Source: Thermodesulfobacteriota bacterium (GTDB lineage: Bacteria; Desulfobacterota; BSN033; UBA1163). From it: DNA of 46,275 bases. The DNA is taken from NCBI GenBank assembly GCA_026415035.1, contig JAOAHX010000019.1:1683-47957 (forward strand), in the 5' to 3' direction. Positions 27,212-42,139 of the stretch are shown here, one piece after another. Numbering within the stretch: position 1 is the first letter of the stretch; each line of letters begins with the position of its first letter. Both the position numbers and the translations under genes were made by a program. The notes below the pieces were generated by a model that did no database searches, was not told where the DNA came from, and saw only the letters and a list, made by a program, of their open reading frames with translations.

Positions 27212-28480
27212 TTAAGGTCCACCCAATTTTTTTGCGATCATCCCCGTCTCGTATTGGGCATGGGTAAATTCACCTGTTTCGATGGGAATGGCCACCTTCA
27301 TCAGGAGAGTAAAGAAGAGAAACCCGAAGGCCCAGATTCCGAAAGAGATCATCAGCTCAAGCAGGTTGGGAACGTATTCGTGAATCTCGCCCAGTGGGTC
27401 AGGGATAAAGCCCGGGATGACGAACCCGGGGCCCTTCTCGATCCAGACCCCCACGATGATCAATAGACAGCCGAGGTTGAGGGTGATTAGACGTTTTCGG
27501 GTCGCTGGGATCAAAAAGAGGAAGAAGGCGGTGACGTTCATCGCCATGGCTGTCCAGATCCATGGCACGAGGGCGTTATGGTGATGGAGGCCCTCGAAGA
27601 GATACTTAAAGGAAGCCGTATGAACCGTATCCGAATAGTACTCTTTGAAGATCTCCGCACCGAGCAGAAAGAGGTTGAGAAACATGGCGTAGGCGATCAG
27701 TTCGGCGATCTTGAAGAGGGCCCGGTCTTCGAGATGGATGGCCGAGACCTTTCGGATGACCTGAAAGATGAGGATGATGATGGCCGGTCCCGAGCAGAAG
27801 GCGCTGGCGAGGAACCTCGGGGCCAGGATCGAGGCGTTCCAGAAGGGACGGGCGGCAAGTCCGTTATAGAGGAAGGCTGTGACCGTATGGATGGCCACCG
27901 CCCACGGAATGGAGAGGAGGATGAAGGGAAGGATGAACCTCCAGTTGGGTTCTTTCCGGTAGTAGAACTTGACCAGAAGATAGACGGGGATGAAAAGGTT
28001 GAGAAACAGGTAGCCGTTGAGGACGATCACATCCCAGGCCAGAAGGGAGGTGGGGAAGTTCATCGACCCGATCCCTGGAAGCATGTGCCAGAACCGGTCG
28101 AGCCTGCCGAGGTCGACCATCACAAAGAGGATCGCCATGACGATACAGGAGGCAGCGAAGAGCTCCCCGAGGACGACGATCTCCTTGATCGGCTTGAATT
28201 GATAGATGTAAGCGGGGATCACCAGAAGGACGGCCGCCGCGGCCATCCCCACGAGGTAGGTGAAGTTGGCGATGTAGAGTCCCCAGGAGACCTGGTCGGT
28301 CATGTTCGTTTCGATCAGCCCCATGTCATGCTGTTTCCAGTAAAAGGCAAACCCGACCAGGATGATGGCGAGAAGCGAGAAACACCAAGCGTAATAAACC
28401 TTGCTCCCCCTCGCCACCAAGAACAGGGTCTTCTTATAAAAATGCCAGGTCTCTTTGGCCAATTCTCGATACGATCTCAT
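27212..28480 (-). CDS. NrfD/DsrP/HmcC-family membrane quinone-interacting subunit
   Basis: About 422 residues with roughly ten transmembrane segments in the NrfD/PsrC pattern (SWGLYIANFTYLVGMAAAAVLL, RLDRFWHMLPGIGSMNFPTSLLAWDVIVLNGYL). These proteins exchange electrons between menaquinol and a periplasmic FeS/cytochrome partner. I prefer the ATG at 28478-28480 (GGGGAG touches it); an in-frame TTG lies 18 bases upstream, so the start is uncertain. It forms a unit with the FeS and cytochrome genes upstream, similar to DsrOPJ or Hmc complexes, and could feed the ArrAB-like reductase next to it. Confidence 0.88.
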   Translation of the reverse strand: MRSYRELAKETWHFYKKTLFLVARGSKVYYAWCFSLLAIILVGFAFYWKQHDMGLIETNMTDQVSWGLYIANFTYLVGMAAAAVLLVIPAYIYQFKPIKEIVVLGELFAASCIVMAILFVMVDLGRLDRFWHMLPGIGSMNFPTSLLAWDVIVLNGYLFLNLFIPVYLLVKFYYRKEPNWRFILPFILLSIPWAVAIHTVTAFLYNGLAARPFWNASILAPRFLASAFCSGPAIIILIFQVIRKVSAIHLEDRALFKIAELIAYAMFLNLFLLGAEIFKEYYSDTVHTASFKYLFEGLHHHNALVPWIWTAMAMNVTAFFLFLIPATRKRLITLNLGCLLIIVGVWIEKGPGFVIPGFIPDPLGEIHEYVPNLLELMISFGIWAFGFLFFTLLMKVAIPIETGEFTHAQYETGMIAKKLGGP

Positions 28481-28487
28481 CTCCCCG

Positions 28488-29393
28488 CTATGATTCAAAG
28501 AAGTAATAGAACTTGGAGTCGGTGTTTAACTCTTCTCTCAATCGAAAGACCCTTTTCCGTTCGATGATGTATCGGATTTCGCTCTTCGGGTCGAGAAGGT
28601 TTCCGAACTTTCTCGATCCCGTAGGGCAGGCCTCTACACAGGCCGGGTAGCGTCCCTGTCTCACCCGCTGGATGCAGAAGGTGCACTTTTCGACCGCGCA
28701 CTTCATCCGGGGTCGGTTACCCAGGTAATGGACCTCGGGGTTGACCTCGTCCTTCGGAAGGTTCGGCTCCGCCCAGTTGAAGACCCTTCCTTTGTAGGGA
28801 CAGGCCGCGATACAGTAGCGGCATCCGATGCACCAGTTGTAGTCGACGACGACGATGCCATCGGGCTCCTGCCAGGTCGCATGGATGGGACAGACCTTCA
28901 CACAGGGTGCGTTCTGACACTGCTGGCACTGGACGGGCAGGTAGACGAACCCCTTCTCCGGAACGAACTCCGGGGCATAGTAATGTTCAGAATCCTCGAG
29001 GTTGATGAGGTTCCCCCGTTTCAGTCTTAAGACCCTGATCCAGTGAAGCTGACGGGCATATCGGGAGTTGTTGTTCTCCTGGACACAGGCATAGACGCAT
29101 CGTCTGCATCCGATGCAACGGGAAAGTTCGAGCCCATAACCCCAGAGCGTCTCCGGCAACGCCTCCTGGGTGCTGATCCGAAACCTCTTGCCATACCTTT
29201 CGAAATATCTCCGCTCCAGTTTGGCGAGGACCTCCCTCTTCTCCTCCTCCTTCATTTCGAGATAATGTTTCTGTAAGAAATCCTCGATCTCCTCTTGGGT
29301 ACAGGAGGAGAGAAGGGGAACAAAACCCGCCGAAAGGGCGCCGAGGGACCATTTCTGGAGGAATTCTCTTCGGCTCAGAGCTTTATTTCGCAT
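28488..29393 (-). CDS. Tat-exported lipoprotein-like FeS protein (DsrO/HmcB type)
   Basis: About 301 residues. The N-terminus has a twin-arginine motif (LSRREFLQKWSLGALSAGF) followed by LLSSC, so it may be Tat-exported and lipid-anchored. Four cysteine groups bind four [4Fe-4S] clusters: CIGCRRCVYAC, CQQCQNAPCVKVCP, CIGCRYCIAACP and CTFCIQRVRQGRYPACVEACP. Start at ATG 29391-29393, overlapping the cytochrome gene's stop by 11 bases. It should sit in the periplasm between the tetraheme cytochrome and the NrfD-like subunit. Confidence 0.88.
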   Translation of the reverse strand: MRNKALSRREFLQKWSLGALSAGFVPLLSSCTQEEIEDFLQKHYLEMKEEEKREVLAKLERRYFERYGKRFRISTQEALPETLWGYGLELSRCIGCRRCVYACVQENNNSRYARQLHWIRVLRLKRGNLINLEDSEHYYAPEFVPEKGFVYLPVQCQQCQNAPCVKVCPIHATWQEPDGIVVVDYNWCIGCRYCIAACPYKGRVFNWAEPNLPKDEVNPEVHYLGNRPRMKCAVEKCTFCIQRVRQGRYPACVEACPTGSRKFGNLLDPKSEIRYIIERKRVFRLREELNTDSKFYYFFES

Positions 29394-29922
29394 TCCGCCT
29401 ATCCGTGGGCTTGAAGGGAGGGGGTTCGGGAACCATCTTCTTGAACTTGGGCACATGGGGGTCGTGACAGTGGGCGCAGAGCAGATAGGTCCTCTTCCCT
29501 GGCCCCATGAAATAGCCGGTTCTCTTTCCGTGGATCCCCGCCCGCCAATCCCGGTAGAGGTTTCCGTGACACTCGCCACAAAGCCTGTGGCTTTCGGTGA
29601 AGTCGATCAGTTCACCGTTGTAGAGCCGGAGCTTGTCCCGGTTCTTCGCATCGTGACAATCGAGACACCAGCGCATCGTCTCCGCATGCTCCATCCGGAT
29701 TTGGGTGTGCTCGTCCTTCAAAACCCTCTTTTTTCGGTTGACCTCCATCGAGGCATGACAGTGACTGCAGGGGAAGATTCCTCCGGTGAAGGGCGGGGGC
29801 GGGACGGGAAATTCCTGGCCTGCTCCTGGGGCAAGGGAAGGGAGTAGGATCGCCCCGATGAACATGAAAAGGAGGGAGAAGATTAGGGTCTGACTCGGTT
29901 GAAAAGTAATTCGCCTTACCAT
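29383..29922 (-). CDS. Tetraheme c-type cytochrome, periplasmic
   Basis: 179 residues with a signal or anchor (TLIFSLLFMFIGAILLPSLAPG) and four CxxCH heme c sites: CSHCH, CLDCH, CGECH and CAHCH. Extra histidines (HTQIRMEHAE, ESHRLC, GIHGKR) could be the second heme ligands. It is the first gene of the cytochrome-FeS-NrfD unit. The four-heme count separates it from triheme DsrJ. It probably connects the menaquinone-linked complex to periplasmic partners. Confidence 0.87.
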   Translation of the reverse strand: MVRRITFQPSQTLIFSLLFMFIGAILLPSLAPGAGQEFPVPPPPFTGGIFPCSHCHASMEVNRKKRVLKDEHTQIRMEHAETMRWCLDCHDAKNRDKLRLYNGELIDFTESHRLCGECHGNLYRDWRAGIHGKRTGYFMGPGKRTYLLCAHCHDPHVPKFKKMVPEPPPFKPTDRRNAK

Positions 29923-30069: not shown

Positions 30070-31050
30070 TCATATCCTCGGCAGACCCGCCTCGTCGAAG
30101 ATCCCTTCGAAGAGGGCTCCCGTCAGGTATCGTTCCCCGGAGTCGGGAAGGATGGCGACGATCGTCTTCCCATCGAACTGGCCGCTCCTTGCCAGTCTCA
30201 ACGCCACCGCGATGGCAGCACCGCAACTGACCCCCGAGAGGATCCCCTCCTCTCTCGCCAACCTCCTGGCATGTTCGATTGCCTCTTCGCTCGAAACCCT
30301 TTCCACCCGGTCGACCATCGAAAGATCGAGCGTATCAGGGATAAAGCCCGCTCCGATGCCCTGGATCTTGTGGGGACCGGGTTTCAACTCCTGCCCGGCG
30401 AGTTTCTGTGTAATCACCGGGCTCTCTTCAGGCTCTACCGCCACGCTGAGGATCTTCTTCCCCTTCTCCAGCTTGATGTACCTGGAGACCCCTGAAATCG
30501 TCCCGCCCGTTCCGACCCCGGAAACGAGGACGTCGATCCGGCCCTCGGTCTGCTCCCAGATCTCGGGACCCGTGGTCTTGAAATGGATCTCGGGATTGGC
30601 GGGGTTTTTGAACTGCTGGGGCATATAATACCGGTCCGGATCGGAGGCCACGATCCGTTCGGCCTCCTCCACGGCTCCTCTCATGCCCTTGGCTCCCGGG
30701 GTGAGGATGATATTCGCCCCGAAGATGGCGAGGATCTTCCTCCGCTCCATCGACATGGTCTCGGGCATGGTCACGTGGAGTTTGTAGCCTCTCGCCGCGG
30801 CTACATAGGCCAGGGCGATGCCCGTATTGCCACTGGTGGGCTCGACGATCTCCATGCCGGGTTTGAGGATTCCCTGCCTTTCCGCGGTCCAAATCATGTT
30901 GGCTCCGATCCGGCATTTGACCGAATAGGCTGGGTTTCGGCCCTCGATCTTTCCGAGGATCGTGGCTTTAAGCCCCTGGGCCATCCGGTTGATCCTGACC
31001 ATCGGCGTATTTCCGATCGATAGAGAGTTGTCCTCGAAGAATCTGGCCAT
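30070..31050 (-). CDS. cysK: Cysteine synthase A (O-acetylserine sulfhydrylase)
   Basis: 326 residues of fold-type II PLP enzyme. The PLP lysine is Lys45 in YSVKCR; the substrate loop [10 protein letters not shown] and the phosphate-binding [10 protein letters not shown] are present, and the C-terminal PDSGERYLT motif is typical CysK. It would make cysteine from O-acetylserine and sulfide. It is the last gene after the copper efflux operon, separated by 57 bases from the His-rich protein gene, and is distinct from the CysM-like enzyme at 39721-40731. AGGAG precedes the ATG. Confidence 0.93.
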
Positions 31051-41161: not shown

Positions 41162-42139
41162 CTACTTTTTCGGAGGACCCACTTCGATGGGTTCTTCGCT
41201 CCGGCTCCATTCGATCCATGAACCGTCGTAGTTTCTCAACCTCTCCAGGGGGAAACCGATCAGATAGAGACTCACCAAACTGTGAGTCGAACGGACCCCG
41301 GAGTGTCAGTAAATATGGACCTCTTTGTCCGGGGTGACCCCGATATCGGCAAAGAGTTTCCGAATCTCCTCGGCCGGCCTCCAGAAGCCCTTGTAAGGCC
41401 CTTCCTTGACGAGCACCTCTCTCCACTCGATCCATTTCACGCCTGGGATCCGTCCGGGTTTGGCCGCACCCGTCAGCGCCTCCTCTCCGAGGTATTCCTT
41501 GCTCGCCCTCACATCGAGGACCACCTTTTTCGGGTCTTTTAAAGCCCCCCTTACCTCTGGCAAACCGCAGAGAAGGGGCTCGGTCGTGCTGGTCTTTCCC
41601 GGGAGTTTGAATGGAGCCGGGCTCGTCGAAGGGGGGACCATCTCGGTCGGATAACCCTTGGCCTTCCATCCCTCCACGCCCCCATCCAATAATTTCATCC
41701 GGGAGATCGGGAAACCATAGTAGGCCAAGATCCACCAGAGACGGGCCGCATCCGGTCCATCCGAATAGATCACCAAGGTGTGATGGTTGCTGACCCCGAG
41801 CCTAGCCATCAGCTCCTCGATCTGGCGTTGCGGGGCCATCATTCCCGGAAGGGGGTGGTCTTTGTCGGTGATATCGGGCCTCCAAATGTTCACGGCCCCA
41901 GGAATATGGCCTGCGAGATACTTTATTTTTTCTCTTACATCGATGATTCGAAGCTCAGGGACCCTCCGATCGATGAGGGCCTTCAATTCCTCGGGCTGAA
42001 TGATCAGCTCGGGTCGTGCATAGCCACCGTTTGGGACGGCAAAGGCCGAGGATCCCAAGGGCCCCGTTCCAAAAAAGACAAGGGAAAAAAGGATGAAAGG
42101 TTTTCCGAAACGCTTTAATAAACACCTCCAATGAGCCAT
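41162..42139 (-). CDS. Secreted tandem rhodanese, predicted selenoprotein (Sec278)
   Basis: Read straight through an in-frame TGA at 41306-41308 the gene gives 325 residues. Up to the TGA it has a signal peptide (PFILFSLVFFGTGPLGSSAFA), a first rhodanese domain with a non-catalytic SDGPDAARLWW loop, and most of a second domain. The TGA falls in EVHIY-x-HSGVRSTHS, exactly where active rhodaneses carry the catalytic cysteine, and the frame continues with LRNYDGSWIEWS, the conserved C-terminal motif, to TAG. A perfect hairpin at 41269-41288 follows. Selenocysteine at the only catalytic site is the best explanation. Without read-through the enzyme would lack its active residue. Confidence 0.88.
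41269..41288 (-). promoter_or_regulatory. Bacterial SECIS-like hairpin of the rhodanese gene
   Basis: GACTCAC-AGTTTG-GTGAGTC: a perfect 7-bp stem and 6-base loop with G at loop position 2. It starts 17 bases after the TGA, placing the apical loop 24 bases downstream, inside the 16-37 range known for bacterial SECIS elements read by SelB. It lies in the coding sequence. Confidence 0.8.

Follow-up and report, generated by a model that had tools for sequence, protein, structure and literature searches.

We found that a tandem rhodanese gene in a Thermodesulfobacteriota bacterium very probably reads an in-frame TGA as selenocysteine (Sec) and performs rhodanese-type chemistry; sequence comparison shows the context for Sec decoding, the orthology, the fold and the operon, whereas we infer the catalysis. 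The gene lies at 42139-41162 on the minus strand of the window, by which we mean the whole 46,275-nt stretch of DNA that was analyzed, and it encodes 325 amino acids followed by a TAG stop, with Sec at residue 278. It has a single in-frame TGA (codon 278; 41308-41306, minus strand), in the context EVHIY-U-HSGVRSTHS...LRNYDGSWIEWS. A Pfam search matched the translated gene to PF00581 (rhodanese) in two stretches (1.1e-30). Alignment and ortholog comparison placed codon 278 at the catalytic-Cys position of the second rhodanese domain, where homologs read YCQSGVRS. This confirmed the central claim of an earlier note made from the sequence, namely, a TGA at the catalytic Cys of a tandem rhodanese.

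At this very codon, close relatives carry TGA or TGT, so the homolog alignment that the earlier note proposed as a check came out in favor of Sec. Six of the eight orthologs have TGA (our genome and five others, all of the same family and spanning two genera), and two have TGT. The five other TGA-carrying genomes belong to related species, with 73-79% protein identity. Among distant homologs, the equivalent codon was TGT or TGC in nearly all cases, with Ser in one. The frame was conserved on either side of the TGA, downstream through the last residues among orthologs, and the downstream motif was kept; close relatives with a true stop and a lost motif, which the note had named as evidence against Sec, were not seen. 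The TAG stop is followed after ∼8 nt by the next gene, which encodes a JAMM protease (start codon inferred); without the C-terminal part of the rhodanese, this tightly packed operon would therefore have a gap here. A search of 395 genomes of the phylum returned no further Sec copies of the tandem rhodanese outside its family.

The genome (97% complete) encodes the complete Sec machinery, with SelA, SelB (366 bits), tRNA-Sec (79.4 bits) and two SelD proteins, which disposes of a missing machinery as grounds for disproof. The genome thus has selA, selB, selC and selD together, as expected for a bacterial selenoprotein. The two selD genes (L018 at C2:99850 and L019 at C24:31358) each have one in-frame TGA followed by a stem-loop, so that this genome appears to encode two selenophosphate synthetases with Sec.

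A bSECIS-like hairpin stands downstream of the TGA (41288-41269, minus strand). It reads GACTCAC(AGTTTG)GTGAGTC, with seven Watson-Crick pairs, a first base exactly 17 nt after the TGA, as the earlier note had reported, and a loop (AGUUUG) that starts 24 nt past the UGA. The rules given in a 2026 review (PMC13188914) ask for a stem of 4-16 bp, a loop of 3-9 nt with a G in its first two positions, a distance of 16-37 nt from UGA to loop and an MFE <= -7.5. The rhodanese hairpin falls within all of these limits, with 7 bp, 24 nt and -13.0 kcal/mol over the 48 nt counted from the UGA. Hairpins of equal size and geometry (scored as a loop of 3-9 nt, G in the first two loop positions and a loop 16-37 nt after the codon) occurred at ∼0.9% of window positions, after 0.8% of TGA triplets and after none of 143 Cys codons. 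Across the family, the hairpin was present in six of six Sec genes and in one of 103 Cys homologs, supporting a hairpin that tracks Sec and not Cys; in two of the six, a Thr-to-Ala change has left a G-U pair. Conserved residues of the hairpin are encoded by nearly identical codons (ranking third of 268 segments, sampling p ∼2.5e-4), a signal that is lost once two Cys orthologs join the set.

The lone hairpin-bearing Cys homolog (in genome G002) has the Sec gene of G007 as its neighbor in the tree (97/94 support), and its hairpin is weakened through the loss of Watson-Crick pairs. Because this Cys copy is nested within the Sec clade, its hairpin is best read as a fossil SECIS, and the gene has the look expected of a recent change from Sec to Cys. 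Another Cys ortholog (G005) retains no hairpin.

These data bear on readings in which the TGA does not encode Sec. An in-frame TGA terminates by default, and a sister clade of another family lost the catalytic residue, as might suit a real stop that leaves a pseudogene or a truncated protein. Yet in six genomes it is the catalytic Cys codon that is TGA, the frame is intact and the C-terminus conserved, and both a conserved SECIS and the Sec machinery are present; a decayed gene would keep neither the TGA nor the hairpin codons. We consider a stop very improbable. The draft assembly, in 81 contigs, leaves room for a sequencing or assembly error, a chance that becomes negligible given the same codon in five other assembled genomes, and the agreement of the six led us to reject pseudogene and error alike. 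Reassignment of TGA to Trp or Gly (codes 4 or 25) would likewise leave the frame open. It is so improbable that we set it aside: TGA is the ordinary stop of 19 of the 33 genes inspected within the window and therefore not a tryptophan codon, and homologs have Cys at the site, not Trp or Gly, apart from one Ser and a Ser/Gly sister clade. The reading of the TGA as Sec is thus supported by relatives, machinery and hairpin.

The predicted protein is a two-domain rhodanese. An AlphaFold model had a mean pLDDT of 91, and Foldseek matched it to two-domain rhodaneses (1UAR, E 3.8e-25). The solved enzymes 1UAR (from Thermus), 1E0C and 3HZU share the two-domain fold; these are Cys enzymes, ∼30% identical to the window protein, and both 1UAR and 1E0C have a Cys aligned with the Sec position of domain 2. 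Of the two rhodanese domains, the second holds the active-site loop, which is six residues long (UHSGVR), with the Arg at position 283 intact. Domain 1 was said to have no catalytic Cys, and indeed there is an Asp in its place (S126-D127-G128). It did not follow that no residue other than Sec278 could react, and this part of the earlier note was wrong. Cys191 (41569-41567, minus strand), a possible resolving or relay cysteine, occurs without exception in the eight orthologs and in none of the 26 other aligned homologs, making it a second candidate. Residues 1-34 (42139-42038, minus strand) form a probable signal peptide, read by eye as a hydrophobic stretch ending AFA-VPNGG, in keeping with what had been noted before. 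Since all eight orthologs have a comparable hydrophobic N-terminus, likewise judged by eye, ahead of a conserved (I/V)PxGGY, the rhodanese is likely exported; export, like sulfurtransferase activity, remains our reading of the sequence.

The gene directly upstream, a rhodanese-ThiF/MoeB fusion (43388-42165, minus strand), is also a predicted selenoprotein, and it is the one that makes the tandem rhodanese "second," as the note had correctly called it. Its TGA (codon 321; 42428-42426, minus strand) lies at a conserved Cys of the ThiF/MoeB domain, as judged by ortholog comparison, and was found in all eight orthologs as well as in several more families within the phylum. A SECIS-like hairpin, CCUGGG(AGUUGUG)CCCGGG, lies at 42411-42393 (minus strand). 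A comparable hairpin also forms in some Cys homologs; the peptide LGVVPG favors one even there, and the structure is therefore weaker support for Sec in this gene. We also observed a homolog of rhodanese-ThiF (L181:1241-2374, genome G056) whose frame contains two TGAs. The first takes the place of the catalytic Cys codon in the rhodanese domain (VVYUASGLRS), the second that of the ThiF Cys codon (VPNUNEAGVL), and a SECIS-like hairpin follows both. Its predicted product would be a double-Sec E1-like sulfur enzyme.

Both genes belong to a conserved block on the minus strand. In relatives the order is an Rrf2-family regulator, a PLP enzyme, ThiS-NIL, rhodanese-ThiF, the tandem rhodanese, JAMM and CysM; the operon is conserved in orthologs, with the contig of one relative stopping inside it. 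In the window, the first gene of the block is the regulator (45905-45441), and profile matches identified the threonine-synthase-like PLP enzyme (45216-43948), the ThiS-like sulfur carrier with its NIL domain (43934-43419), the JAMM/JAB metalloprotease (41153-40758) and the CysM-like cysteine synthase (40731-39721), all minus strand, with inferred starts for the PLP, carrier and protease genes. Fusion to NIL makes the GG of the carrier internal, so that it would need to be freed by cleavage, with the JAMM protease of the operon as the obvious predicted candidate for cutting after GG. One genome (G011) has the operon without the tandem rhodanese, which is therefore not essential to the pathway; this points to the Sec ThiF as the earlier member, to which the exported rhodanese was added.

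With a ThiS-fold carrier, an E1-like enzyme, a CysM-like enzyme and a JAMM protease, the gene set is of the CysO type, and the operon looks built for cysteine synthesis. In Mycobacterium, MoeZR loads sulfur onto CysO; CysM then draws on the thiocarboxylate, and cysteine is set free by Mec+ (PMC3227635). The likeness to this thiocarboxylate route lies in the carrier, the rhodanese-bearing E1-like enzyme, the JAMM protein and the CysM-like enzyme, side by side here. Our operon differs in that NIL is attached to the carrier, whose GG is internal, and in that the E1-like enzyme contains Sec and has its rhodanese domain at the N-terminus; it also encodes two further proteins, the exported Sec rhodanese and the threonine-synthase-like enzyme. 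Open-licence papers yielded nothing useful on the Wolinella homocysteine thiocarboxylate route.

How might the rhodanese work? We propose that the SelB/tRNA-Sec machinery decodes the TGA as Sec, directed by the downstream hairpin, and that the product would be a periplasmic two-domain rhodanese in which domain 1 is structural and Sec278 sits in the domain 2 loop. Relative to Cys, Sec would give a lower pKa and faster exchange. Most likely, Sec278 would accept the sulfane sulfur of thiosulfate, polysulfide or a donor of that sort, form a selenopersulfide (Se-SH) and hand the sulfur on, perhaps via the clade-specific Cys191. Because the rhodanese shares an operon with a cytosolic cysteine pathway of the ThiS/ThiF/JAMM/CysM type, which has a selenoprotein as its E1-like enzyme, it would probably acquire sulfur for that pathway. 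The weakest part of this scheme is the coupling of an exported rhodanese to a cytosolic pathway, which we put forward tentatively and with some doubt. Since the ThiS/ThiF proteins are cytosolic, an exported rhodanese could not be coupled to them directly, and a carrier or small product would be needed; the exported enzyme may liberate a transportable form of sulfur, or it may act with Cys191 as a periplasmic reductase. Taken as a whole, the operon could be a selenium-dependent thiocarboxylate cysteine pathway, with a cytosolic Sec E1 enzyme and an exported Sec278/Cys191 rhodanese that collects sulfane sulfur outside the membrane, a speculative picture that we hold to be rather unlikely.

The protein might also be a selenoprotein of a different kind, a periplasmic redox enzyme in which a Sec278-Cys191 selenenylsulfide reduces polysulfide, selenite or peroxides. 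That Cys191 is kept throughout the Sec/Cys clade and missing from every other aligned homolog would fit such a pair, and the majority of predicted selenoproteins are related to thiol oxidoreductases (PMC2398784, PMC9312934). Against this stand the intact six-residue rhodanese loop with its Arg283 and the conserved operon genes, among which no thioredoxin-like partner was seen. We regard a redox role as unlikely and retain the sulfur-transferring rhodanese as the preferred reading.

Sec forms of both families have been predicted before, and the bare presence of Sec is therefore less novel than first thought. A 2005 Sargasso Sea survey (PMC1088965) reported three Sec-containing COG2897 rhodaneses and 11 Sec-containing MoeB sequences, the 2008 GOS analysis (PMC2398784) again included a Sec COG2897 rhodanese and a Sec MoeB, and the 2026 review lists a UxxG rhodanese "form 4" and MoeB (PMC13188914). 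Our protein resembles the COG2897/SseA Sec rhodanese in its tandem-rhodanese group, in Sec replacing the catalytic Cys and in the UxxG motif (here UHSG); as far as the accessible text of those sources goes, that group consists of only a few metagenome sequences, and export, Cys191 and the operon are not described for it. With PF00581 and UxxG present as UHSG (278-281), it has the features of "form 4" (representative record MCY3690685.1), a likeness judged by domain and motif. The upstream gene likewise matches the predicted Sec MoeB/ThiF proteins (PMC1088965, PMC2398784) in carrying Sec in the ThiF/MoeB domain at a conserved Cys of homologs; it differs in its fused N-terminal rhodanese and in its sulfur-carrier/CysM operon, a comparison made at the level of the domain. 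Among open-licence papers, we found none linking a Sec rhodanese and a Sec MoeB in one operon and no experimental work on a Sec rhodanese.

Among curated families, the top relative was SseA (3-mercaptopyruvate sulfurtransferase, NF008557), a related family of which the protein is not an equivalog (110.8 bits vs. a cut-off of 250). Similarity to ExtH of the Geobacter selenite/tellurite operon (NF040901; PMC5877670), itself rhodanese-like, was weak at the profile level (67.4 bits, far below the cut-off of 200), and we rejected this assignment on score; nor was a cytochrome or porin cluster seen beside the gene. The profiles rhodanese_LYCAU (NF041203; 33.2 bits < 115) and TsoB (NF045694; 23.2 bits < 805) were also rejected.

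In the nearest clade outside the orthologs, the active-site residue is Ser or Gly, encoded by TCC or GGC and not TGA; Cys191 is absent, and the loop Arg is mostly missing. We noted the tandem rhodaneses of this clade (L142, L143, L144 and L145) as members of a related family, 52-55% identical to the window protein. An active site of Ser or Gly without Cys191 suggests that this clade is inactive as a rhodanese, and these proteins are probable pseudoenzymes; the protein was thus able to evolve a role without the Sec/Cys residue. No pathway genes were found at the loci of these Ser/Gly relatives.

We conclude that this is a well-supported further Sec rhodanese, in a context more interesting than the earlier note had said. 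Within the clade, Sec and Cys forms of the enzyme occur naturally at ∼70% identity, a gene that recently reverted from Sec to Cys still carries a fossil SECIS, and the sister clade lacks the catalytic residue altogether; the value of selenium vs. sulfur in sulfur transfer is therefore directly testable. The operon, if our reading of it is true, would tie selenium to cysteine synthesis via a thiocarboxylate route.

Directly downstream of cysM, we observed a gene for a sulfide-dependent thiazole synthase (THI4-like, TIGR00292; 39699-38902, minus strand), followed by a DUF6775 putative metallopeptidase, a pair kept together in some relatives. Elsewhere in the window, an NrfD/polysulfide-reductase-like membrane subunit with a 4Fe-4S protein (27212-29579, minus strand) and a further PLP-enzyme (PALP) gene (30070-31050) possibly represent more sulfur metabolism.
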